DNA of 64,000 nucleotides. It comes from Hyphomicrobium sp. (GTDB lineage Bacteria; Pseudomonadota; Alphaproteobacteria; Rhizobiales; Hyphomicrobiaceae). Both the position numbers and the translations under genes were made by a program. Location: contig RXJH01000007.1 in the NCBI GenBank assembly GCA_003987725.1, positions 3,177 through 67,176 of the forward strand, written 5' to 3'. A model generated the notes under the pieces. The model was not told where the DNA came from. It did not search any database and saw only the letters and a list, made by a program, of their open reading frames with translations. The first letter of the stretch is position 1, and the number at the start of each line of letters is the position of its first letter. This document shows positions 12,632 to 26,140 of the stretch, in pieces.

Positions 12632-12717
12632 GCCCAGATGGCGGAATTGGTAGACGCACTGCTTTCAGGTAGCAGCGCTCACAAGGCGTGGAGGTTCGAG
12701 TCCTCTTCTGGGCACCA
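12632..12717 (+). tRNA. tRNA-Leu (CAG anticodon), island attachment site
   Basis: An 86-nt class II tRNA with acceptor arms GCCCAGA/TCTGGGC and encoded CCA. The anticodon stem CTGCT/AGCAG holds a loop with anticodon CAG, and there is a long variable arm. Its last 19 bases (12699-12717) recur at 26122-26140, marking it as the attachment site of the island that follows. The integrase gene starts about 100 bp downstream. Confidence 0.95.
12699..12717 (+). repeat. attL: tRNA-Leu 3' end
   Basis: AGTCCTCTTCTGGGCACCA is the 3' end of tRNA-Leu and is identical to 26122-26140. This is the left attachment repeat of the integrated element. The tRNA is kept intact. Confidence 0.88.
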
Positions 12718-12815
12718 AGGCTTTGCTAAGTCCTTGAGGCGTCGTAAGTATCAAGCATCATTGAAAGTTTGGCCGCACCAACTGTGATACAGAGGTGCGC
12801 TACGTGGTGCTTTTC

Positions 12816-14468
12816 ATGTCTCGTCCAACTCGGCGTTCTGGCTCGCGTCATGCGCAGTTTCAGAAGCGCGTTCCTGCTCCCGTTTTGAGGATCGCTCGCG
12901 GTAAGCAAGTTGCTCTTTCGCTCCCGCCTGAAACAGCCAACGGACCGCCGATCCAACTTACCGTCAAGCTCATCGACGTGCTGCGCTTCTCACTGCGAAC
13001 CAACGACAAGGGGCTGCGTGAACAGCGCCACGTGGCCGTCTTACAGCAGCTTGACCGAGCGTATCAGGCGATCCTGGAAGGGCCACGCAGTCTCTCGAAT
13101 AAGGAGCGTGTGGCGCTGTCCGGCGTTCTCTACGACACGCTCGCCTCGGGTTTTGAGGACGAGCCAGTTAGCGCCGAGTGGTGGAAGATCGTTGGCGAAG
13201 TCGCCCATCATGCACTCACCGCGCCGACGCTGACTATAAATACCTTTCCGAATGAAGGTCGGCTGCGCCAGCTTGAACGCTACGTCGGGCCTTTCCTAGA
13301 AGCGGTATTGCTTCGCGAAGGAGTAATCGCTGACGATGATAGCCGGTTAGGACTGCTCGAAGCCTTCGCAACCGCCCTCATCAAAGCGGCACGGAAGCTG
13401 AAACAGAACGCCGAAGGCGATTACACTCCCGACCCGGCCGCCGCCCGCTTCCCGAAGTGGGAAGGCATTAAACCCGTAGCGTCAGCATCTTCATCGCCTA
13501 CCTCTCTCACGTTCGACAATCTGCTAGATCGCTGGGAAAGAGAAAGTGCGAAGGCACCAAGCTCGCTCGTCGCCTTTAGGCAGCACGTCCGCGCATTCAA
13601 AGAGCACCTCAAACACAACGACGTGAAGAGCGTCACGCGAACAGACGTGATTGCCTGGAAGGATGCGCTTCAAAGCCAGGAGCTTGCTGCCAAGACTATC
13701 AACGGGAGCTACCTCGCGAGCATCCGCACCTTGTATCGCCTTGCTAAACGCAATGATCTAATCGCCACGGACCCAACGGAGGGCATTGGCGTTCAATCAA
13801 AGCAGAGAGCAGGTGAAGGAAGGCTGCCGTATGATGATGCCGAGGTCAGCGCGATACTGGCTCTTGCTGATGTTCAGACGGACACTCGTTTGCGTTGGAT
13901 ACCGTGGCTACTCGCCTTGACCGGAGCGCGAGTGGGCGAAATCGCCCAGCTCTGGGGCAACCGCGTCATGACAGTCAATGGCGTCCCCATCATCCGCATT
14001 GCCCCTGCAGACGATGGAGGCACGATAAAGAACGCCGGATCGGAACGCGACGTGCCGCTTCATCCTGAAATCGTCAGTCGCGACTTTTTAGAGTTCGTGA
14101 AAACACGCCCGAACGGAGGTCCATTGTTTTACGGCGGGAAGCAAGCGGAAGCGCGTCCCAGAAAGTCGAAAACGGCGGGTCATGCCTCAGACGGCGCAAT
14201 CAATCGCGTCCGTGAATGGATACGCGAGAGCGGCTTCGCTGATCCTCGCAAAGCGCCGAGCCACGCATTCCGTCATTGGTTCAAGACGAAGTGCGCCGAC
14301 CTCGACATCCCAGACAGTGTTGCAGACGCGATCCAAGGGCACTCCGATCAAAGCGCGGCCGCTAGTTATCGAAAAATCAGCCTCGCGAAAATGGCGGAGG
14401 CGATCCGCAAGATTGAGGTGTCCGCATCGCAAAAACAACCGGCGGGTGAGTCCCGAAGGCGGACCTAG
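12816..14468 (+). CDS. Tyrosine site-specific recombinase (island integrase)
   Basis: A 550-aa phage-type integrase. The N-terminal 'MSRPTRRSGSRHAQFQKRVP' resembles DUF6538-type integrases. A SAM-like core-binding region runs around 230-310. The catalytic domain has TGARVGEIAQL (Arg), GSERDVPLH, HAFRHWFKT (H-x-x-R), GHSDQS (His) and ASYRKIS (nucleophile Tyr). I chose the ATG at 12816 for the family N-terminus; an in-frame ATG exists at 12795. Its position next to tRNA-Leu and the matching 19-bp repeat at the far end identify it as the enzyme that inserted this island. Confidence 0.93.
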   Translation: MSRPTRRSGSRHAQFQKRVPAPVLRIARGKQVALSLPPETANGPPIQLTVKLIDVLRFSLRTNDKGLREQRHVAVLQQLDRAYQAILEGPRSLSNKERVALSGVLYDTLASGFEDEPVSAEWWKIVGEVAHHALTAPTLTINTFPNEGRLRQLERYVGPFLEAVLLREGVIADDDSRLGLLEAFATALIKAARKLKQNAEGDYTPDPAAARFPKWEGIKPVASASSSPTSLTFDNLLDRWERESAKAPSSLVAFRQHVRAFKEHLKHNDVKSVTRTDVIAWKDALQSQELAAKTINGSYLASIRTLYRLAKRNDLIATDPTEGIGVQSKQRAGEGRLPYDDAEVSAILALADVQTDTRLRWIPWLLALTGARVGEIAQLWGNRVMTVNGVPIIRIAPADDGGTIKNAGSERDVPLHPEIVSRDFLEFVKTRPNGGPLFYGGKQAEARPRKSKTAGHASDGAINRVREWIRESGFADPRKAPSHAFRHWFKTKCADLDIPDSVADAIQGHSDQSAAASYRKISLAKMAEAIRKIEVSASQKQPAGESRRRT

Positions 14469-14566: not shown

Positions 14567-15106
14567 TCACCACCATTTATATTGGGAGTTGAGGCTGATC
14601 CACATCGTTCTGACGGCGGACGCTACCGGCAGAAGTGGGCCATCGGACCCATCGGAATTTAGGGCTTGAACACGTACTTCCCACTTCACTTTGCCGGGCG
14701 AAGTGCCTGAGCTGGCGCTGCCGCCTCCGATCGAGAAGCTGGCTACATTTGAACTGAAGTGAGGTGCTCCAAACTGTTTGCTTTTGTATTTGAGCAAAGT
14801 CTCGTGCTTTAAGGCGTTTGCCGTACAACGAATGATCTCAAAGTTTCCATCTTGGTCTCTCAACCAGTTCGCAAACCCTTCACTTGTCTCGACCGATATG
14901 GGTTTCTGTAACTTGTTTTGAAATGTCCAGCCTTGCGCTTTTATTGATGATTCGTGAGCGCGAAAGACCCAATCGTGCATGTGGTAGAGTGAAGTGGCGC
15001 AATGCATCGCCTTCCGCAAATCACCCCGATGCTGATCGAATTCATTGAAATCTACTTCCACGATATCGGTCCAGAAATCGCGAATACCCAACGCCTTTGT
15101 GCACAT
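14567..15106 (-). CDS. Small helical protein, possibly HEPN-like, last gene of the island operon
   Basis: A 179-aa protein I do not recognise with certainty. The N-terminal half is helical (DLRKAMHCATSLYHMHDWVF) and is followed by FEIIRCTANALKHETLL. That Arg and 'ANALKH' layout resembles HEPN-like proteins, though the spacing is R-x7-H rather than the usual R-x4-6-H. The C-terminal part looks like beta strands. I use the ATG at 15106 with GGGGTGG upstream. It lies 177 bp after the second methyltransferase on the same strand, so it is probably the last gene of that operon. If it is HEPN, it would be an RNase effector; this is inference. Confidence 0.55.
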   Translation of the reverse strand: MCTKALGIRDFWTDIVEVDFNEFDQHRGDLRKAMHCATSLYHMHDWVFRAHESSIKAQGWTFQNKLQKPISVETSEGFANWLRDQDGNFEIIRCTANALKHETLLKYKSKQFGAPHFSSNVASFSIGGGSASSGTSPGKVKWEVRVQALNSDGSDGPLLPVASAVRTMWISLNSQYKWW

Positions 15107-15283
15107 CGGCCACCCCAAACATAAAACGGTCAGTTTCGATACGCGATCGACAAACCAAGCGAAATTCGGGCCAATAGAAACACGCGAAGCTGATGCGAGC
15201 AGATAGGCGTGTCAAAAATCCCTCAAATCTTCCTTCGCGGAAATGACCGCCTACTGTTGAAGTCAGTAAGTTGGCCCCATATG

Positions 15284-16522
15284 TTAGCCGGAACGAGAGA
15301 ATGTAAGTATGAACTCCTCCGACATTGTTCGGATCAAACCTGAATCGCGTTTGGAAGTACATGAACTTCGAGCAAAGCGGTTGACATGCGAAGGGTGTCG
15401 TTTGCGCGTCAATTTTCGTACATCGTATCGAGTTAACTCAAAACCCAAGCTAGCGAATTGATCAATTGTGAATTGATCGAGCTTCACTCTGAACCCACCT
15501 GTTGACCTTTGCCCGACAATCAAAACTGCCGTACCTGAAGCTTTCAGAGATGAAGCTATTCCTCGGCACGCTATTGCGTAATCCGCGAGAAAGCTCTCGA
15601 CTTTTTTCGCGGTCGTTCCCTCGGCGCTTCCAGCCCAATATTGACGCGAAAGATGGCGGATTTCCCTCGATAGTCTGCCGCCGAGACATTGCGAGTCAAC
15701 GGAGGAAGAACAACTGAATGTTTCAAGCCCCTTCACCAGAGGGACGAAAGTTAGGCAAAGCTTCGACGCCGCTCCGTACTGAACGGTTGTCTTTGAATCC
15801 CCATAAGGTGGCGAAGTAAGGATCACATCAAATTTCCTGCCTCCCTCATCCACTCGCAATCTACGAGCATCCCCAATCCTTATAGATGTATTTTTAGAAT
15901 TGTATGGCTTCGTATCGCTCTGCGAAATGAAGTATTCTAATCTTCGCGCGAAATGAGCCCAAGCAGATGCAGCGAATGTAGAACGGGAAGCCTCGGACAT
16001 GCGGTGAAGTTTCCAGCCACTCTTCCGCGCGAAAGATGCGTCTCTCGTTGTGGCACTCAGAATAGCTCCCAATACCAGCAGGTCCGGCTGGGTAAGTTGC
16101 TTCATGTTCAACCAAGCAACAATCTGGCTTAGTTCTTCCATCGATTGTTCGTTGAACCATTGAACCGTTTTTACTTCGCTCGATGCGGCTATCCGCTTCC
16201 GATAACATGTGTCCGTTTCGATTTCGGCAAGCAACCTTCGTAGGACGCTGACATTGGGGTTAGCCAATCGCGCTCTTGTCAACAAGACAGCAAGTGGATT
16301 GATGTCTATTCCCACGATGCGATCGGCAGACATCGCTTCGGCAGCGGCAAGAAGCCTGCCCGATCCGCAGAAGGGATCCAAAATTGAATGGCCCTTCCGC
16401 ACATGTGTTCTGGCCAACTGAGCCGCGAGATCCTCATCCACCATCGCGGGATAAGGATGAAATCGAGCTAGTCTCGCCCGTGGACCCGAATTTGTATTAG
16501 ATCGCCGATTAGTTGTACGCAC
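15284..16522 (-). CDS. DNA methyltransferase B (FHPYP / TSPPY type)
   Basis: A 412-aa amino-methyltransferase. Motifs in order are FHPYPAMV at 21-28, the SAM-binding loop DPFCGSG at 49-55 with GIDINPLAV after it, and catalytic TSPPY at 236-240. TSPPY marks enzymes that methylate N6 of adenine or N4 of cytosine. It starts at a GTG at 16522, overlapping the kinase-like gene by 55 nt. A later start would cut off FHPYP. No endonuclease gene is adjacent, so it is either a solitary modifier or part of a multi-protein system with methyltransferase A. Confidence 0.83.
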   Translation of the reverse strand: MRTTNRRSNTNSGPRARLARFHPYPAMVDEDLAAQLARTHVRKGHSILDPFCGSGRLLAAAEAMSADRIVGIDINPLAVLLTRARLANPNVSVLRRLLAEIETDTCYRKRIAASSEVKTVQWFNEQSMEELSQIVAWLNMKQLTQPDLLVLGAILSATTRDASFARKSGWKLHRMSEASRSTFAASAWAHFARRLEYFISQSDTKPYNSKNTSIRIGDARRLRVDEGGRKFDVILTSPPYGDSKTTVQYGAASKLCLTFVPLVKGLETFSCSSSVDSQCLGGRLSREIRHLSRQYWAGSAEGTTAKKVESFLADYAIACRGIASSLKASGTAVLIVGQRSTGGFRVKLDQFTIDQFASLGFELTRYDVRKLTRKRHPSHVNRFARSSCTSKRDSGLIRTMSEEFILTFSRSG

Positions 16523-16971
16523 TCAGCCACCGACAGCCCAGAAGTATTCAACGTCAGAGTAGGGACACTACGCGCGAGAGGATACTGTGTATCGCAGAAT
16601 GCGTCTTCGGCAGCGTCCGCCTCGCCTAAATTGATTACCGTTCCATGGCGGGCTTGCCAACGTGCTATTCGATCATTTTCAGAAGCTTCGAGCCGCACAA
16701 ATAAGACGCCAGACCGTCCCAAGAGTACTGAGGCCAAATATCGACCCTCAACGATACAGTGATCCTGTAGGCCAACCCAAGCTCGGGTCACCACGTCGAT
16801 AGACTGGTGGTCCGACGCGGTGAGGTCGTCTATCTTAAGCCCCTTCTGTTTCGCCAATAATCGCGTTTCTTCTCCACAGTGTCGAATCGGCATGTCTGGG
16901 AAGCGTTGCGCCAACGAACGGACAATCGTCGTCTTGCCTGTCGATGAGCGACCGAAAATCGCGATGATCAT
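16468..16971 (-). CDS. Nucleotide-kinase-like P-loop protein
   Basis: A 167-aa P-loop protein. It begins IIAIFGRSSTGKTT (Walker A at 7-14). It also has EGRYLASVLLG, which lines up with the DGRDIGTVV segment of cytidylate kinases, and LFVRLEASENDRIARWQARHG, which resembles their LID region. A (deoxy)nucleoside monophosphate kinase is the most likely fold; the substrate is unknown. The start ATG at 16971 overlaps the methyltransferase A stop by ATGA, so the genes are translationally coupled. Its placement between two DNA methyltransferases is unusual. Confidence 0.72.
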   Translation of the reverse strand: MIIAIFGRSSTGKTTIVRSLAQRFPDMPIRHCGEETRLLAKQKGLKIDDLTASDHQSIDVVTRAWVGLQDHCIVEGRYLASVLLGRSGVLFVRLEASENDRIARWQARHGTVINLGEADAAEDAFCDTQYPLARSVPTLTLNTSGLSVAECVQLIGDLIQIRVHGRD

Positions 16972-18110
16972 GACTTTTGAAAAACATATAGTGTTTCGAC
17001 TGACGGGTTGGATGCCCGGTCGGAAACTCTTCGACGAGAAGGCACTCGATGTCGCGGCCCCCATACTCGAGGCATCATACTTTCTAGATCAGCAACCGTC
17101 TGATCCACAGTTCCCGGATATTTCCGAGATTCGCCTATGACGAGGGCGCAATATGCTCCCACTTTCATCACGCGGTGAATTTCGGTCCAACACGCTTTCA
17201 TTTGCATTACATAATCGCTCGCTGCGTTCCGACGCTGCCGCTTGTAGCGAGCTCCAATCTCTTGCTCGCGCTGTTCGTCGATATTCCAACCCATCCACGT
17301 ATAAAATAGCCGGTTCGCACGAGTATAGTCGATCATGCTCACGTATGGGGGAGAGGTAACAATCATATCTACGCAGCTTGATGGTTGTGCCAGCGTCCTC
17401 GCATCCTGACAAAGAACAAATGCGCGACCACCCCTTTTCATGAGATTGGCTGCGGCCAGCTCTAAGAGACGAGTCTCAAACATGGCCACTGCATCATGTT
17501 CCACCAGCTGCTTCGGTTTTACGTTGTCGGCAACCCATCCCCAATGATGGCGTCTCTTGTTTCCACTGGCCGTAGTGGCGTGACCCGGTGATGAACACGC
17601 ATACAACGTATCTGAAAACACGAGCGACAACGCCGCTTTGGATAGCCCTATTTCTTTCTCTACCAATTGCCAGAGAAAACGGAGTTGCGCCAAGGTTGAT
17701 GGTGCGAACCAAGATTCTAGTTCAGGAGACGCACCCTCATTCCGTCGCCCCACTGCATCGGTTGCACATAGATTACGCCAAACAAGCTGCTCAAGAAGCC
17801 TCTCCACCAGACTTTTGCTAAGGGCCCCGTTCTGTAGTGCAACCTTTCCGGCGCTGATCATCACACAGGCAAGAATGCGATCCGAAGCTATCACATTGCG
17901 GTCAAGCCGTAGAGCTTCGACAGCCGTTGTTCCGCTTCCGCTAAAGGGGTCCATTATGAGATCGCCGGGCGCGGACAGGGCCTGAATAAGAGACGAAGGT
18001 ATCTGGCCGATGTAATTCCCGGGAAACCAGTGTGACGACTGAATTGCGTCGCCGGTGCCAGTCGCTCTCGGGAAATCCCAATCGATGTGATTTAGAGCGT
18101 CAATGCTCAT
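16968..18110 (-). CDS. DNA methyltransferase A (DPFSGSG / TSPPY type)
   Basis: A 380-aa amino-methyltransferase. WFPGNYI at 28-34 is followed by the SAM-binding loop DPFSGSGTT at 54-62 and catalytic TSPPY at 252-256, then helical DYTRANRLFYTWMGW. The order SAM loop first, then TSPPY, and about 190 residues between them, resembles methyltransferase B, so the two may act as a pair. The target is N6-adenine or N4-cytosine. It starts with ATGA overlapping the HD gene's stop. Confidence 0.83.
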   Translation of the reverse strand: MSIDALNHIDWDFPRATGTGDAIQSSHWFPGNYIGQIPSSLIQALSAPGDLIMDPFSGSGTTAVEALRLDRNVIASDRILACVMISAGKVALQNGALSKSLVERLLEQLVWRNLCATDAVGRRNEGASPELESWFAPSTLAQLRFLWQLVEKEIGLSKAALSLVFSDTLYACSSPGHATTASGNKRRHHWGWVADNVKPKQLVEHDAVAMFETRLLELAAANLMKRGGRAFVLCQDARTLAQPSSCVDMIVTSPPYVSMIDYTRANRLFYTWMGWNIDEQREQEIGARYKRQRRNAASDYVMQMKACWTEIHRVMKVGAYCALVIGESRKYPGTVDQTVADLESMMPRVWGPRHRVPSRRRVSDRASNPSVETLYVFQKS

Positions 18111-19372
18111 ATCAAAGATAGTTGTGGATCTGACGAAGCCACGCCGATGGGTCGAGTATCAAACGATGAAAAGGCTAGTCTAAACGTTGTACCTATTTCA
18201 TCTGCAGAGAATGGACGCCGGTCAGGAGATCCTACTCCGAACAACCACTGACGTGAGTTCGAGCCCAAAGTCTTCGTGCTCCCGTCATCGAACCTGACAC
18301 TCAAGCAGCGATCACGCTTATCCTTTATCGCGTATGCAAAGCAGGTTCGATTTAATTTAGAACTGAGTTGATTTGAAAAAAGGCGTAGGTCGGCATAGTC
18401 CGGCCGGTTGCCTGACATCCATTCGAGTGGCGAGCAGTTCCAGAGTTCACCAGCCAACCACCGCAAAGAAGAATCTTTCACCGCAGCAGTAGGCGACGCC
18501 GTAAGGCGATGAATCAGCTCGGTATCAGTGAGCGACCATTCGGACTTAGCAATCTCGCCGTTTTCATATGCCGTTGTAACAGCGAACAGCATCATAAGTT
18601 TGCCCGCAAAATCGTGGGGTGCGAGCATTAGGTTTTGGTAGACCATTGCTCGCGTTTCTCGCCACCTTTGAAGATTGGTCTCTGCATCCTTGCGAAATAT
18701 CGGATCACCCGTATCGCGGCAAAAATCCACGATAGCTTTCGCAAGTCGTTGAGGCTCTTGCCGGTCCACGTTTAAACCTAGGTGGTAGGCCATCCGATAG
18801 ACATTATCGATGTTATCCAAGTCTATGTCGCCGGATATAACGCGGCCAAACAATCCCCGCCCCTTGATGTGATCACTTATTTCTTCGACGAGGCGAGTAG
18901 CCTCTCGTGGTCCAACGACTGCTCTCGCCCATTTAACCAGCCCAGTCTCGCGGCCAGCCAATATCTGCATCCCTACGCCTCCGATTTGATCCGGAGCGAG
19001 ATTGGAAGCAAGCTCGTGTAAGCGTTCTTCATGGTCGAAGCCAGTACCCACGTACTGCAATGCTTCTTCGACTAAATGGCCGTACGCTGTAATCGCCCAG
19101 TCATGCAAAAGCGCCGACGCGAGCAGAAGAACATTATCGAACTTCGACAACTTCGAGCGGAAGGGCACGAGCTCAGCAAGGCGGGCGACCCCAAGGACAT
19201 GTTCATAGCGAGAGATGTTCGCAATACCTGGCATGTCGAGCGAATCGATGTTGGAAAGTCTCACGTGTCGCAGTCGCTGAACCATCGGAATCTGGATCAG
19301 GCTCGCGAGAGGCTCGCTCCAATCTACGAGGCCGTAAAGCGCGTCCATCGTAGCTAAGTTTGCAGAAGTCAT
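18107..19372 (-). CDS. HD-domain phosphohydrolase, SAMHD1/dGTPase-like
   Basis: A 421-aa protein with an HD metal site: RYEHVLGVARLAE (His58), ALLHDWAITAYGH (His90-Asp91, His99) and GDIDLDNIDNVYRMAYHLGL at 181-200. That last segment matches the D-x-D-x3-D-x3-R stretch of dNTP triphosphohydrolases of the SAMHD1/dGTPase branch. Such enzymes hydrolyse dNTPs; bacterial relatives limit phage by depleting them. It starts at an ATG overlapping the previous stop (ATGA). The C-terminal 200 residues are not recognised. The function here is inferred only from the fold. Confidence 0.75.
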   Translation of the reverse strand: MTSANLATMDALYGLVDWSEPLASLIQIPMVQRLRHVRLSNIDSLDMPGIANISRYEHVLGVARLAELVPFRSKLSKFDNVLLLASALLHDWAITAYGHLVEEALQYVGTGFDHEERLHELASNLAPDQIGGVGMQILAGRETGLVKWARAVVGPREATRLVEEISDHIKGRGLFGRVISGDIDLDNIDNVYRMAYHLGLNVDRQEPQRLAKAIVDFCRDTGDPIFRKDAETNLQRWRETRAMVYQNLMLAPHDFAGKLMMLFAVTTAYENGEIAKSEWSLTDTELIHRLTASPTAAVKDSSLRWLAGELWNCSPLEWMSGNRPDYADLRLFSNQLSSKLNRTCFAYAIKDKRDRCLSVRFDDGSTKTLGSNSRQWLFGVGSPDRRPFSADEIGTTFRLAFSSFDTRPIGVASSDPQLSLI

Positions 19373-20514
19373 GTTGGAGCCTTCCCCCTCCGGTTATCAG
19401 CCCGTGAAGCAGTCTTGACCACTTCCTCTGGTGCGGCCGATTTCACACGAAGGTCAAGTTTCATGCTCGCATAAGAGTGCAGCAAACTCCAGTCGGCGTC
19501 CGCTTGAGCGGCTTCTATGAAGACGCTGAACATTGCATCCCACATACGTTCTGAAGGTAAGACGTGTCGGACGAACACCCGATACTGTTCAATGGATTCT
19601 ACATCTACGAGCGCATAGCAGTCTTCGTACACCACTAGCGTCGGCTTTCGAGTATCGTCGAACTTACGAGATTCTATTTTTTTAAACGCTTTGGACGTTG
19701 CCGTGTGCATCCCAGCGTACGTTCGGCTTGACCAAACATACTGTACGCCCAGCGTTTCGAGCTGCTTCGTTTTTTTTGCGTAAATTGAATCTGCGAAGCC
19801 GAAATGAGGCGTGTAAGCATCTATGACCACCAACAGCTTCGCCGCCGTTCGCCACTCGATTCCGTCATCTTTCGCAAGCTTTTCGAGGAAACTGACGAAC
19901 TCGATCGGGTGTCGAGACGCTGTCAGATACTGTACTGTTAGCCCCTCCTTGAAAAAGGCCATTGCTAACTTGCCAACCAACTTATTAGCTTGAGCCTGGT
20001 GCTCTGTTGCTACCGCCAAAGAGCGAGGTGCGAGCGCCTCCCGAACGTCTAGCTCTCCGAAAGATGACAGGATCTCCGTCAATTCCTTTCGGAGGTCATC
20101 ATCGATTGGCAAGGGATCATGAGCATACGTCGGACGATGATTTTGCGACTGCTTCCAATGGCGGAAGTGTCGGATGATAGGCAAATATTTTGGACGCCAA
20201 TCATCAACGAAATAAAGAAACCTAATGGAAAAGCGGTACAAGACATAACATGTTGCAAGTAGGTTGACGAGCAACAAAGCTGCGGAGGCATGTCCCGCGT
20301 ACCAATCCCAATCTTTTGGAACAAGCGCGGCGCAAAGCGCGAGTGTCGCACTTGTCAGTCCCAATAAGAACAAGCCGAAGACAGAATTGATGACGTATGG
20401 CGCTTTACGCTCTCTTCCCACCAACGTGTAAAGACTAACCTGAAATGCCATGAGTGTTGCCACGGCTGCGAGTAGCGACCAAGTCGAGAGTTCGCTCGCT
20501 ACTGAGTTAGTCAT
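19369..20514 (-). CDS. Membrane-anchored protein with a RecA/KaiC-like domain lacking a clear Walker A
   Basis: A 381-aa protein not assigned to a characterised family. Three to four hydrophobic helices lie at about 10-120, ending in FLYFVDDWRPKYLP. The soluble C-terminal part has LVVIDAYTPHFGFADSIYAKKTKQLETLGVQYVWSSRTY, which resembles the Walker B and following strands of KaiC/RAD55-type ATPases. I find no G-x4-GK[ST]. The start is the ATG at 20514 with TTGGAG 6 nt upstream, overlapping the QueC-like gene by 8 nt. It could tether the system to the membrane or act as its effector. Confidence 0.6.
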   Translation of the reverse strand: MTNSVASELSTWSLLAAVATLMAFQVSLYTLVGRERKAPYVINSVFGLFLLGLTSATLALCAALVPKDWDWYAGHASAALLLVNLLATCYVLYRFSIRFLYFVDDWRPKYLPIIRHFRHWKQSQNHRPTYAHDPLPIDDDLRKELTEILSSFGELDVREALAPRSLAVATEHQAQANKLVGKLAMAFFKEGLTVQYLTASRHPIEFVSFLEKLAKDDGIEWRTAAKLLVVIDAYTPHFGFADSIYAKKTKQLETLGVQYVWSSRTYAGMHTATSKAFKKIESRKFDDTRKPTLVVYEDCYALVDVESIEQYRVFVRHVLPSERMWDAMFSVFIEAAQADADWSLLHSYASMKLDLRVKSAAPEEVVKTASRADNRRGKAPT

Positions 20515-21247
20515 TGAATGCTCCAAGTCGGGCTACTTCGAGGACCTCAATAGCGATCTGATCCAGTGCGGCAAGCGATTTGCCGATGGCAGACTCCCAT
20601 AGCTCGACCTGACTACGCAATCGATCGGGGTCAAGTTCAACGTTTGTGACTTGACGAATGCACTTCTGCTCAAGAGATCCGCTATGGATGCCCAGGCGGT
20701 CAAGAGCAGCAATCGCGTCGTCTCGCGAGGCGATGTCCTGTACGGGGAGTGCTAACTCAATACCGTATTTCTCCAAGACGTTTCTCAAAGAATTAATCGC
20801 AAGCGGTGTCTGCTCGGGCCAAACGTTCTGATAACCGACATACCCAAACGTCAGCGTTCTTGCTTTCACAGCTGCCGCTACAGCCGATCCGACAACCACA
20901 TACGCATGGTGACAAGGGAGGCACGTCTGCTCGTAAAAGCTGGTATCCGTCGCCAGCTCGTTTGGCTGCCGGACAACTATCCATAATGTGGTGGACGGCA
21001 AAATTTGGGAAAGCTCTCCCAACCTTCGGCGAACCAGGTCCAGACCGATCAAGTGAGGCGCTGCAATGGTCACCAGCACGAGCGGATCTGTTTGGTGGCT
21101 GCGCAATGCTGCAAGAGTAGAATCTCTCCCGCCGGAAAACATGATCACATTGCAACCCTTCGGCACTTGCTCGCGATCGGCTGCCTCGCTCAATGACAAT
21201 TTGTGCATGTGCTGTGTCGCCCTTCGGAGGGAATACCCCATTAACAT
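20507..21247 (-). CDS. QueC/ExsB-like PP-loop ATP pyrophosphatase
   Basis: A 246-aa PP-loop enzyme. VIMFSGGRDSTLAALRSH gives the SGGxDS signature at 38-43. CLPCHHAY (Cys109, Cys112, His113) and a later Cys196 could bind zinc, as in QueC. FGYVGYQNVWPEQTPLAINSL also resembles the QueC middle region. QueC makes preQ0, but related proteins occur in defence systems such as Qat and type IV CBASS. No other queuosine genes are nearby, so a specialised role in the island operon is more likely. It is the first gene of the operon. The start is uncertain, with ATGs at 21247, 21241 and 21208. Confidence 0.75.
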   Translation of the reverse strand: MLMGYSLRRATQHMHKLSLSEAADREQVPKGCNVIMFSGGRDSTLAALRSHQTDPLVLVTIAAPHLIGLDLVRRRLGELSQILPSTTLWIVVRQPNELATDTSFYEQTCLPCHHAYVVVGSAVAAAVKARTLTFGYVGYQNVWPEQTPLAINSLRNVLEKYGIELALPVQDIASRDDAIAALDRLGIHSGSLEQKCIRQVTNVELDPDRLRSQVELWESAIGKSLAALDQIAIEVLEVARLGAFND

Positions 21248-21604: not shown

Positions 21605-22213
21605 ATGAGAGTGCAAAAAGTGGCCAAGACGCTATTCTATGCGCGGGTGTCATCCCGCGAACAAAAGCTCGATCTCCAACGTGACGCTGCCCGAAAGCTG
21701 AGCGTCAAGACAGCAGACATCTTCATCGAGAAGGCATCGGGTGTTCGCCACGACAGACCAGTGCTCGCAAAGGTGTTGTCCGAACTGCGACCCGGGGACA
21801 CTTTGGCTTGCTATAAGCTTGACCGCATCGGTCGCAGCCTCGTGCATATCACTAAGCTGATTGCCGACTTGGAAGAGCGAGGCATTCACTTTCGCACTGT
21901 GGAAGACGGCCTCAGCACTCAAGGCTCAACTGGAAAGTTGATTTTGCATGTTCTCGGGGCCGTGGCCCAATTCGAGCGTGACCTTATCTTAGATCGCACG
22001 AGAGCGGGATTGGCTGCGGCAAGGAAGCGTGGCACCCGGCTCGGGCCACCGATCAAATGGTCACCCGATATGGCAGCGAAGGCTCGTAACCTAATGACCA
22101 AGGATGGCCTCAACGCAAACGATGCGGCGAAGGTTTTGGGCGTGAGCCGTCGAACTATGTTTCGGGGCTTGAAAGCGGCTCGCGACCATGACGAATTGCT
22201 CCGCACGGAATAG
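21605..22213 (+). CDS. Serine recombinase, Tn3-type resolvase/invertase
   Basis: A 202-aa serine recombinase. The N-terminal catalytic domain has FYARVSSREQKLDLQRD (catalytic Ser in RVSS), then KLDRIGRSL and FERDLILDRTRAGLAAARKRG. The C-terminal helix-turn-helix is NANDAAKVLGVSRRTMFRGLK. Length and order fit Tn3-family resolvases and DNA invertases. It may be left from a transposon nested in the island. Repeated GTGCCA motifs lie directly upstream and may be its target. Confidence 0.92.
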   Translation: MRVQKVAKTLFYARVSSREQKLDLQRDAARKLSVKTADIFIEKASGVRHDRPVLAKVLSELRPGDTLACYKLDRIGRSLVHITKLIADLEERGIHFRTVEDGLSTQGSTGKLILHVLGAVAQFERDLILDRTRAGLAAARKRGTRLGPPIKWSPDMAAKARNLMTKDGLNANDAAKVLGVSRRTMFRGLKAARDHDELLRTE

Positions 22214-22252: not shown

Positions 22253-22798
22253 TCAAAAGGGTCCGAGCAAGTGAGCTGGCCGAAATCTATAAGGCTGGCT
22301 ACAGTTGCCATGGCGTTGCCAAGCACCGATCACCCTCCCAGTCAAAATTAGTTCACGCGCCTTCGCGAAGGCCTGCTCCCTTAGCCCATTATCGCCGCGC
22401 CATATACAATGAGCGACCTTTTCTTCCGCCTCCATTCGACGAATGATCCAGCCCGGGTCGCTGGTATTTCCTATGCCGAGCGGGGTCTGAAGTAGGCACA
22501 TTTCCTCGAAGACTGGGCTGGTCACATAACGCTGGACAGGGTCAATGATCGGCCACTGCCAGAAGCGACAAGCCTCTGACACCCATGTAACGGTTCGGCG
22601 GTCAGTCAGAACTGCCTCGAAGGATGCTTCTATGACCGGCCCATCTGGAGACGAACGCAGCCACGGCTCATTGTATATTGGAGTAGTCAGCCCAAACGGT
22701 TGCCAAACCTGCTTGATCAGCAGGAACCGACATCTGACCCGCTGCCCAACATAATAGGACGGCCAAGGCGACTGACTGCGAAGAGTTCTTGGCGGCAT
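22253..22798 (-). CDS. Hypothetical protein in island
   Basis: A 181-aa protein that I do not recognise. It is rich in Trp, Arg and Pro (YYVGQRVRCRFLL, EACRFWQWPIIDPVQRY) and has no signal or membrane segments. The start ATG at 22798 follows AGGAAAG. It converges with the resolvase, and lies downstream of the RepA-like gene on the same strand. Confidence 0.55.
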   Translation of the reverse strand: MPPRTLRSQSPWPSYYVGQRVRCRFLLIKQVWQPFGLTTPIYNEPWLRSSPDGPVIEASFEAVLTDRRTVTWVSEACRFWQWPIIDPVQRYVTSPVFEEMCLLQTPLGIGNTSDPGWIIRRMEAEEKVAHCIWRGDNGLREQAFAKARELILTGRVIGAWQRHGNCSQPYRFRPAHLLGPF

Positions 22799-23295: not shown

Positions 23296-24387
23296 TCAGA
23301 AGTCACTTGTTTCTCCCTCGTCATCGTCCCGGGCGTTTTGCAGAGCATTTCGGATTTGCTCTCGCGTTACGATGCCCGCGTCGTATGCCTTGTTGAGCAT
23401 CCTCGTTACTTCGACTGACGAAATGCCGAGGGTCGTCGCTGCATCCTTTTGACGCCCGAACTCCCCATCTAAGATACGCCGAACGAGGTCCGCCACGTCG
23501 GGATCAACAAGAGTATCCCAACGCCAGGTGCCACATTCAAACTTGACGGTGAATACTTGCCCAGCATCCGGCGACTGCATTCGTAGCTTTGTGAAATCAA
23601 GCTTGAACGAAGCGCCGCCCGTTCCGCCAATGCTGTCGTGTGGTTTGAGCCTTACGAGGCTATCAAACATGACTGGTATCTTCGACGAGCCGTGGTAGTT
23701 CTCTCCTCCTTTGTTTGCGTGGTGGATGACGAGCACCGCAGCGCCGGTCTCTCGGATACGGTGCAGCATTTTCAAGAACGGGTCCCACGCTTCCGAAGCG
23801 TTGGCATCGTCCACTGTTGCGAGAGTGCTCAGATTGTCGAGGACGACGAGATTAGGGCGCACTGAACGGATGCGTTCCAAGATGCGCCGTTCGTGCTCCT
23901 CGTTGCCGAAGTCAGGGAACGATGTGTCGCCAACCGGCTGATCGTGACGGGCATAGACGTGAATGTTGCCGATCACTTTCTGTTTGTCTCCGCCCGTCGC
24001 GGCGTCAACGATAAGCTGAAACCGGCCTCTGAGGTCGGAAGGGTCCATCTCGCCGTCAATGAGCAGCACCCGTCGAGGGGCGGGAGCTTTCCAGTGTCCG
24101 AACGTGCCACCACCCGCAACGGCAGCAGCTATACCCAGCGCGAACAAGCTTTTGCCTACGCCAGTCGGAGCGAATACCATTGAAAAACCGCGCTCCAAGA
24201 GCCAAGGGCCGCAGAGTTGCTGACGGGGTTGAATAGTGTCGTCATTGAGGAGATTGCCCAGCGAACGGATACGCGGCCCTTTGACTTGCTTTTGAACGGG
24301 CGATTTGCGGGAAGGGTTTGAAGAGCGGCGGCCGGATTGGCCCCCGTTTATAGTCCGAGATTTGGCAGTCGCAGTTTGAGGCTGCAT
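23296..24387 (-). CDS. RepA-like AAA/RecA-fold ATPase of a mobile element
   Basis: A 363-aa ATPase. After a basic N-terminus comes VFAPTGVGKSLFALGIA (Walker A at 73-80), RRVLLIDGEMDP, NLVVLDNLSTLA (Walker B) and VLVIHHANKGGENYHGSS. This fits the AAA_25/RepA-like hexameric ATPases of plasmids and integrated elements. The C-terminus (about 310-350) has a helix-turn-helix: KDAATTLGISSVEVTRMLNK. The ATG at 24387 follows AAGGAG. It probably served in replication or transfer of the element. Confidence 0.8.
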   Translation of the reverse strand: MQPQTATAKSRTINGGQSGRRSSNPSRKSPVQKQVKGPRIRSLGNLLNDDTIQPRQQLCGPWLLERGFSMVFAPTGVGKSLFALGIAAAVAGGGTFGHWKAPAPRRVLLIDGEMDPSDLRGRFQLIVDAATGGDKQKVIGNIHVYARHDQPVGDTSFPDFGNEEHERRILERIRSVRPNLVVLDNLSTLATVDDANASEAWDPFLKMLHRIRETGAAVLVIHHANKGGENYHGSSKIPVMFDSLVRLKPHDSIGGTGGASFKLDFTKLRMQSPDAGQVFTVKFECGTWRWDTLVDPDVADLVRRILDGEFGRQKDAATTLGISSVEVTRMLNKAYDAGIVTREQIRNALQNARDDDEGETSDF

Positions 24388-24914: not shown

Positions 24915-25451
24915 GTGTTTGGTTGGCTCAAAAAGAAAAACGCATCGCGGGAGGAACGGGCAGCTTTTGCGAGGGGTGCAGATTTTGCGCTCTCACACAT
25001 TTTCGCTCGTGGGCGCCCAGACAATTCCTTTTGGGTCGAGAGAGGTCGGATAGACTGCACTGATCCACAAGAGCGCGGTGAGGTGTCGTCAAATTTCAAA
25101 ACGCTATGGGATCAACTCTCCAAGAACAGGGAGAATTGGATCAGTCAATTGGAAGGATACGCCGAGCTTTTGTCTGATCCGAAGGCGACGAAGTTTCAGG
25201 AAGCCGCTGCTGAGCTCATGTTGGGCATCGTTAAGACCGATATGCTTTGCCGCATGGCTCTACAATTTCCCGACGACACCGAGCTAAGTGATGTGGCGTT
25301 TAAAGTCCTGGGCGGTAATTTCGGCACCTTCGACGCGGTGATCATGGGCCCGCGTTCGGCGGCTTCGGTTTTGGAGCCGTCACCGTCAGCAGGGCTACTA
25401 GATGAGCTGCCCTTTGCAAAAGCTCTATTCGAGAAGCGAACTGGATGGTAG
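24915..25451 (+). CDS. Hypothetical protein in island
   Basis: A 178-aa soluble, helical protein that starts at a GTG (FGWLKKKNASREERAAFARGADFALSHIF) after GGGGGACTACGA. It has no signal peptide or membrane helix; the segment AAELMLGIVKTDMLCRMAL is amphipathic. I do not recognise the family. It is the only plus-strand gene between the RepA-like gene and the right attachment site. Confidence 0.55.
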   Translation: MFGWLKKKNASREERAAFARGADFALSHIFARGRPDNSFWVERGRIDCTDPQERGEVSSNFKTLWDQLSKNRENWISQLEGYAELLSDPKATKFQEAAAELMLGIVKTDMLCRMALQFPDDTELSDVAFKVLGGNFGTFDAVIMGPRSAASVLEPSPSAGLLDELPFAKALFEKRTGW

Positions 25452-26121: not shown

Positions 26122-26140
26122 AGTCCTCTTCTGGGCACCA
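26122..26140 (+). repeat. attR: copy of the tRNA-Leu 3' end
   Basis: AGTCCTCTTCTGGGCACCA is identical to the last 19 bases of tRNA-Leu at 12699-12717. No tRNA body precedes it. It marks the right end of a 13.4-kb island. Confidence 0.88.

Follow-up and report, generated by a model that had tools for sequence, protein, structure and literature searches.

The 64,000-nucleotide stretch of Hyphomicrobium sp. analysed here (assembly GCA_003987725.1, contig RXJH01000007.1, positions 3,177 to 67,176; hereafter the window) carries an operon in which the genes of an HD phosphohydrolase and a predicted DNA amino-methyltransferase (methyltransferase A) form a core module with exchangeable partners. This pair was found in 15 loci in all, window included, from bacteria, archaea, viral contigs and one plasmid. 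In the window the core is accompanied by a predicted sulfurtransferase of the pyrophosphate-loop (PP-loop) type, a membrane protein, a nucleotide-kinase-like protein and a second methyltransferase (methyltransferase B), and the operon is carried by a 13.4-kb mobile element (approximately 12.7-26.14 kb) integrated at tRNA-Leu. We tentatively read the operon as part of a defence system that works through nucleotide or base chemistry.

Recurrence of the gene set and its core

An earlier note on this DNA, made from the sequence alone, described seven consecutive minus-strand genes, and this layout is seen in the open reading frames (ORFs; Table 1). Its 4-nt overlaps between the membrane protein and HD genes and between the HD and methyltransferase A genes follow from the ORF coordinates. 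Its other overlaps hold with particular starts: 4 nt between methyltransferase A and the kinase if the latter starts at the internal ATG at 16971, 55 nt between the kinase and methyltransferase B with the GTG start at 16522, and 8 nt between the PP-loop and membrane protein genes if the latter starts at the internal ATG at 20514. The spacing before the last small gene, given as 177 bp, is 165-177 bp by choice of start.

Table 1. Features of the operon and of the element that carries it (positions in the window)
Feature	Position	Strand	Evidence
Gene 1, PP-loop ATP pyrophosphatase, predicted [4Fe-4S] sulfurtransferase	20507-21247	-	SGGRDS at residue 38; C109xxC112; C196
Gene 2, membrane protein	19369-20526	-	three N-terminal hydrophobic segments; C-terminal domain without recognised fold
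Gene 3 (core), HD phosphohydrolase, SAMHD1/COG1078 fold family	18107-19372	-	profile matches 2hek (E 5e-26) and SAMHD1 (E 2e-20)
Gene 4 (core), DNA amino-methyltransferase A	16968-18110	-	motif I DPFSGSGT, motif IV TSPPY; Pfam N6_N4_Mtase 4e-17
Gene 5, P-loop nucleotide kinase, (d)CMP-kinase-like	16468-16971 (ORF to 17064)	-	NCBIfam cyt_kin_arch 1.3e-6, under cutoff
Gene 6, DNA amino-methyltransferase B	15284-16522	-	DPFCGSGR, TSPPYGDSxTTVQYG; PADLOC MTase_II PDLC03322 2e-40
Seventh ORF	14567-15118	-	no significant family match (Pfam, PADLOC, NCBIfam, PHROGs)
tRNA-Leu	12632-12717	+	ARAGORN; 3' end 12699-12717 is the left attachment repeat
Tyrosine recombinase/integrase	12795-14468	+	Pfam Phage_integrase 1.7e-7, SAM-like 8.7e-7
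Serine resolvase	21605-22213	+	Pfam Resolvase 7e-40
AAA_25 ATPase, presumably RepA-like	23296-24387	-	Pfam AAA_25 8e-30
Right attachment repeat	26122-26140	+	exact 19-nt copy of the tRNA-Leu 3' end, AGTCCTCTTCTGGGCACCA

The full order of genes 1 to 6 recurs in two other loci, L061 on a phage-like contig and L088 in a genome of the Bradyrhizobium family (G1289), with 29-54% identity per protein to the window; the architecture is thus beyond chance, and it is ruled out that the homologues occur together in this island only. The proposal of the earlier note, a multi-gene system that is carried by a mobile element and has no name yet, is borne out in that the set recurs elsewhere and no PADLOC-2023 system covers it. 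The shared unit probably consists of six genes, since the seventh is without family match and has no relative downstream of the L061 operon; in L088 the contig stops approximately 340 bp past methyltransferase B and is uninformative on this gene. Membership of the seventh gene, as assumed earlier, is therefore unlikely.

The HD and methyltransferase A genes are adjacent in 15/15 loci, with gaps of -140 to +8 nt (longest-ORF starts) and a 4-nt overlap in six. Ten of the 14 loci besides the window were found via the HD protein and four via the methyltransferase, so that neither set presupposed the partner. As a control, 62 HD loci that the same searches had given outside the members were inspected, and none had the methyltransferase gene, versus 14/14 members besides the window; 61 of the control loci had an HD profile match, and their flanks were covered over at most 1.5 kb, less where the contig ended sooner. 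Members scored at least 427 bits and controls at most 153 with an HD profile that was built from the members.

When plasmids and phages were searched by tblastn with HD or PP-loop proteins, a single record reached a coverage of at least 80% of an HD query: a plasmid of Rhizobium etli (97% covered at 28% identity), where a methyltransferase and an unannotated P-loop kinase follow (L018); partial HD matches came from Listeria, Priestia, Natrinema, Klebsiella phages and others. A pattern scan of genome contigs based on the alignment of the window and R. etli HD proteins gave 116 matches, of which seven proved to be further loci (Methanothrix, Treponema, Verrucomicrobiota, Bradyrhizobium, Heimdallarchaeota, Mesorhizobium and Pseudomonadales). 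That scan used two short peptide patterns, and the 15 loci are no estimate of prevalence. Whole-genome searches added L056 (G478; 398 genomes) and L088 (198 genomes, with two members including the starting genome). In the 398 genomes, 79 matched the HD protein at 1e-8, full length only in the window and G478; among 397 genomes of the window's own order 15 matched at E 0.001, full length only in the window. In further sets of 194, 250 and 199 genomes, member-like scores were confined to the starting genome, and weaker HD paralogues were many. Archaeal HD matches with E 1e-31 to 1e-43, present in 158/199 genomes (one being the starting genome), were taken as background, and no methyltransferase gene was found beside them in the 19 loci fetched.

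The methyltransferase alignment led to five viral-contig loci, in four of which (L061-L064) an HD gene adjoins. These four members were found through the methyltransferase only: scans of viral contigs with the HD protein alone, with A1 and with A3 gave nothing, and those with A5, A6 and A11 gave only the L061 contig again; the separate match L101 is this contig too. L062 and L063 are near-copies. HD paralogues (ORFs around L057-L059 and the 62 control loci) were rejected as members for want of a methyltransferase, and the methyltransferase-only matches L065, L102, L103, L105, Priestia H25 and Rhizobium H26 because no HD gene was seen.

Five types of accessory genes accompany the core. Type A (window, L061, L088) has the six genes described. 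Type B (L018, L020, L021, L022) has a flavin adenine dinucleotide (FAD) enzyme and a guanylate-kinase-like protein, the latter fused to a dCTP-deaminase-like domain in 3/4 loci. Type C (L019 and L023, both archaeal) has a radical S-adenosylmethionine (SAM) enzyme and a DUF4062-NACHT protein. Type D (L024, L056, L064) has an AIRS enzyme in 3/3; upstream are a 220-260-residue protein with CFLC and one of approximately 400 residues, grouped by size and place only, as a phmmer comparison of these proteins gave no similarity of L024 to L056 or L064. Type E (L025, L062, L063) has a SAM methyltransferase and a convergent gene for a deoxynucleotide monophosphate kinase; its membrane proteins have no similarity to gene 2. 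A nucleotide kinase is thus encoded nearby in 11/15 loci, from four families: CMP (cytidine monophosphate)-kinase-like in three, guanylate-kinase-like in four (two by Pfam, two by similarity to those), deoxynucleotide monophosphate kinase in three (two by profile, one by similarity) and thymidylate kinase, convergent, in one (L024). In maximum-likelihood trees of the HD protein and the methyltransferase, types A, B, C and E are each set off by one branch with bootstrap 100; type D is set off only in the methyltransferase tree (83/83). The accessory genes therefore largely travel with the core.

Two side observations concern these loci. On the R. etli plasmid two ORFs make up the FAD gene of the operon (L018:8796-9999), and this split may reflect decay or a sequencing error. 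The DUF4062-NACHT proteins that adjoin the pair in the two archaea (L019:7988-10441, L023:6095-8509) have no PADLOC match.

Predicted properties of the proteins

H58, H90, D91, H99, H114, D184 and D186 of the HD protein are present in 15/15 members and align with 2hek and SAMHD1. All 15 members have DxDNxDN at the place of DxDRxDY, where the SAMHD1 helix reads DVDKWDYFARD; the usual DxD[RK]xD[YF] is present in 51/61 control HD proteins, and the other 10 do not match the pattern. In SAMHD1 structures the helix with this signature contacts the nucleotide, and on this ground the nucleotide-binding side of the HD protein, and with it the substrate, has probably changed.

Gene 1 had been called QueC-like. 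It is better read as a predicted [4Fe-4S] sulfurtransferase. The SGGxDS pyrophosphate loop and a CXXC-C pattern are present in 3/3 PP-loop members, the third cysteine lying exactly 87 residues past the first. The only cysteines of the window protein are C32, C109, C112 and C196, and those conserved are the CxxC plus one more. The corresponding cysteines are C142/C145/C233 in the [4Fe-4S] protein NcsA (PMC10067955) and C92/C95/C172 in LarE (PMC9283937). YcfA is the solved structure that matches best by sequence and by fold, and no other solved structure gave a significant sequence match; PMC7994395 describes it as required for 6-thioguanine synthesis. The QueC family (PF06508) was rejected, as the zinc motif C(x)8CxxCxxC, given for QueC in PMC13329287, is missing. 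The Pfam matches of gene 1, taken up to E 1, do not include PF06508, the L061 relative of gene 1 scores 13.9 bits against a cutoff of 22, and the structural rank also disfavours this family. A YcfA-like PP-loop gene was also seen at L106:5462-8789 (G1710), near LOG-family-like, PfkB-like and RdgB-like genes named by eye; this is perhaps another thiopurine or nucleotide-salvage cluster.

Motif I and TSPPY are intact in both methyltransferases (METHYLTRANSFERASES), which match N6_N4_Mtase and MTase_II; the SPPY motif is typical of N4-methylcytosine enzymes. The profile of methyltransferase A matches N4-cytosine and N6-adenine methyltransferases in the PDB. Relatives of methyltransferase B in L061 and L088 are 38-43% identical. 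The PADLOC matches of the methyltransferases are generic, namely MTase_II and, weaker, PglX and mad2 (best 25 of 53 and best 25 of 72 matches). Other operon proteins match weakly mad8 (kinase, 8e-5) and dGTPase. In line with the earlier note, no endonuclease family (Pfam, PADLOC) and no TGT-like match (Pfam, PADLOC, NCBIfam) was seen among the seven proteins, with the reservation that the C-terminal domain of gene 2 has no recognised fold.

The profile of gene 5 matches cytidylate kinases in the PDB at 7e-5, and relatives occur in L061 and L088. The N-terminal hydrophobic segments of gene 2 are found in 3/3 members. Gene 2 has no significant family match in Pfam, PADLOC, NCBIfam or PHROGs, and its model (predicted local distance difference test score 55) has no structural match at E <=0.001, only weak KaiC-like ones.

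Mobile element and genomic context

The operon lies inside the 13.4-kb element because the last 19 nt of tRNA-Leu recur exactly at the right attachment repeat, the sole match of at least 14 nt to 12661-12790 elsewhere within the window. The integrase next to the tRNA gene has an XerD-type match (5e-13) under the cutoff of that family. The G+C content is lower in the operon region (0.50-0.53 at 14-22 kb) than at 1-7 kb (0.61-0.63). The left flank of tRNA-Leu is kept in 11/12 other genomes of the genus, G1587 having matched tRNA-like stretches only. The right flank beyond 26.1 kb had no match in any of the seven stretches fetched, and an empty site was thus not demonstrated. A second copy of the tRNA-Leu end lies 24-32 kb away in two relatives, G1586 (C1:320547-344700) and G1585 (C5:339661-371605), where other islands, of approximately 24 and 32 kb, lie between the two copies. 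This tRNA-Leu is therefore an integration hotspot. Two further genes of the element were noted, at 22253-22798 (no PADLOC or NCBIfam match) and 24915-25451.

In nine loci (L018-L020, L022-L025, L056, L063) a selection of the flanking or upstream proteins was scanned, with no random-gene control. Defence-type genes flank the core in five of these. L020 is near RdrA and RdrB of RADAR (1e-29 and 3e-19, RdrB being cut by the contig end), L022 is near PD-Lambda-1 (4e-154), L018 starts with a PN-superfamily effector (1e-13), and the flanks of L024 and L063 contain an AriA/OLD-type ATPase and an Mrr-type nuclease (Mrr_cat), respectively. The operon of L061 is located between replication/excisionase genes and genes for a ParB-methyltransferase and a terminase; L062 and L063 are beside tail or lysis genes. 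A Rhizobium anhuiense plasmid (L109:382-12884) encodes consecutively two DNA methyltransferases, a very large ATP-binding protein, a phospholipase D family protein and a UvrD helicase, possibly another defence locus.

Possible function and relation to known systems

Our preferred interpretation, held tentatively and at less than even confidence, is that the operon represents type A of a mobile modular system which protects its carrier from phages or mobile elements by nucleotide or base chemistry, here thiolation, coupled to DNA methylation. The PP-loop protein would bind a [4Fe-4S] cluster via its three cysteines, activate a base with ATP and insert sulfur; its target may be a guanine- or cytosine-type nucleotide, or such a base within nucleic acid. 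The CMP-kinase-like protein would phosphorylate the thiolated product, and the HD enzyme could clear a non-standard or competing nucleotide, or be the effector. The methyltransferases might mark host DNA or recognise the target, and the protein with three membrane segments might sense or execute at the membrane. Nucleotide chemistry is favoured over plain DNA methylation mainly because non-orthologous kinases and nucleotide- or base-modifying partners join the core. Mobility is indicated by the tRNA-Leu repeat with the integrase, by the phage contigs and by the plasmid.

Several observations weigh against this interpretation. TSPPY methyltransferases are enzymes of DNA rather than of free nucleotides, so that the link from the core to nucleotide chemistry is a presumed one. 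Gene 5 resembles CMP rather than GMP (guanosine monophosphate) kinases and scores under curated cutoffs, which makes the modified base uncertain. A kinase was seen in 0/2 type C and 1/3 type D loci. YcfA itself, unlike gene 1, is without CXXC in their alignment, and no NUDIX family was found among the seven window proteins (Pfam, NCBIfam). HD and methyltransferase identities are correlated (Mantel r, Pearson, 0.86; 0/5000 permutations), but mainly through within-type pairs, the Spearman value being only 0.28. Only two of the flanking defence genes point to strong named systems, and three other element proteins scanned in the window with PADLOC gave no named defence system. Carriage by phages fits phage self-protection equally well.

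A somewhat unlikely alternative is a DNA-modification system for telling self from non-self, in which the methyltransferases, perhaps with the thiolase, mark a fixed host target and the HD and membrane proteins attack unmarked DNA or kill the cell, with a logic like that of BREX or phosphorothioation. It would account for two predicted DNA amino-methyltransferases with intact motifs and for the defence genes in the flanks, and W134, D195 and P199 of methyltransferase A, outside its catalytic motifs, are invariant in 15/15, as a fixed target would predict. However, no endonuclease, PglZ or other known effector was recognised in the operon, and the recurrent joining of four kinase families and a dCTP-deaminase-like domain is left unexplained.

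Clearly less probable is hypermodification of phage or mobile-element DNA as anti-restriction, in which a modified nucleotide is made, phosphorylated by the kinase and put into or onto the element's DNA while the HD enzyme removes the unmodified competitor. The loci in IMG/VR contigs (4/15), with their phage-type neighbours, and the phage-type deoxynucleotide monophosphate kinase of type E agree with this. Yet 11/15 loci, archaeal ones included, come from genomes or a plasmid, where no systematic search for phage structural genes was made, and with Pfam the operon showed neither a dedicated polymerase nor a dUMP/dCMP hydroxymethylase.

Depletion of nucleotides by a SAMHD1-type dNTPase triggered by infection, with the other proteins sensing or regulating, is improbable. 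The intact catalytic residues and the fold family of the HD protein would suit it, as would the dCTP-deaminase-like domain of three type B loci, but the signature usual in related HD proteins is altered in every member and the methyltransferases are left unexplained. That unrelated cargo genes share one operon of one island by chance is barely credible and is refuted for the six genes whose order recurs in two distant loci at the identities given above, although the seventh gene, missing after the L061 operon, may be such a passenger.

A broader version of the preferred defence interpretation, which we regard as doubtful, is a modular immune system common to both domains, with a fixed HD-methyltransferase core and exchangeable base-modifying enzymes (thiolase, FAD enzyme plus dCTP-deaminase-like kinase, radical SAM enzyme, AIRS enzyme or SAM methyltransferase), so that the modified nucleotide or base mark would differ from type to type. 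Should this hold, bacteria and archaea would have in common an immune (or DNA-marking) system that has no name yet and is founded on nucleotide chemistry; its core of two enzymes would be constant and its five kinds of chemistry exchangeable. Nucleotide-based antiviral defence would then extend past depletion and chain terminators to thiolation, and the loci would be a source of new base-modifying enzymes. To our knowledge, type A would be the first case of immunity by [4Fe-4S]-dependent thiolation, whether of a nucleotide or of a DNA base. Even as phage self-protection, the recurring pair is a module without an assigned role so far.

The operon proteins matched no named system of PADLOC-2023, and the gene set was not described in the literature searched, a scope outside which preprints as such and later defence lists fall. 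Type II restriction-modification systems and BREX, DISARM and MADS have DNA amino-methyltransferases in common with the operon, in which, in contrast, no endonuclease, PglZ, helicase or other Mad partner was recognised (the C-terminal domain of gene 2 being without a recognised fold). In qatABCD and type IV CBASS an ATP-dependent PP-loop enzyme (QatC, Cap9) is likewise part of a defence-like operon. The partners QatA, QatB and QatD had no PADLOC match among the operon proteins (for the methyltransferases, among the best 25 matches), and for those of type IV CBASS, the CD-NTase and Cap10, there was no nucleotidyltransferase or TGT-like match among the seven proteins. SAMHD1/COG1078 and dGTPase defence proteins have the HD fold and catalytic residues of gene 3, which differs from them in DxDNxDN for DxDRxDY and in its DNA methyltransferase partner in 15/15 loci. 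The 6-thioguanine clusters (YcfA of Erwinia amylovora, TgsB of staphylococci) resemble type A in a PP-loop enzyme of the same fold; they have NUDIX hydrolases (YcfB/TgsC), the staphylococcal ones also a desulfurase and an efflux protein, and no HD protein or DNA methyltransferase is described in them. The [4Fe-4S] sulfurtransferases TtuA, NcsA and LarE act on tRNA or the nickel-pincer cofactor and have no operon in common with the window, but they combine, as gene 1 does, SGGxDS with CXXC-C at similar spacing (PMC9283937, PMC10067955).

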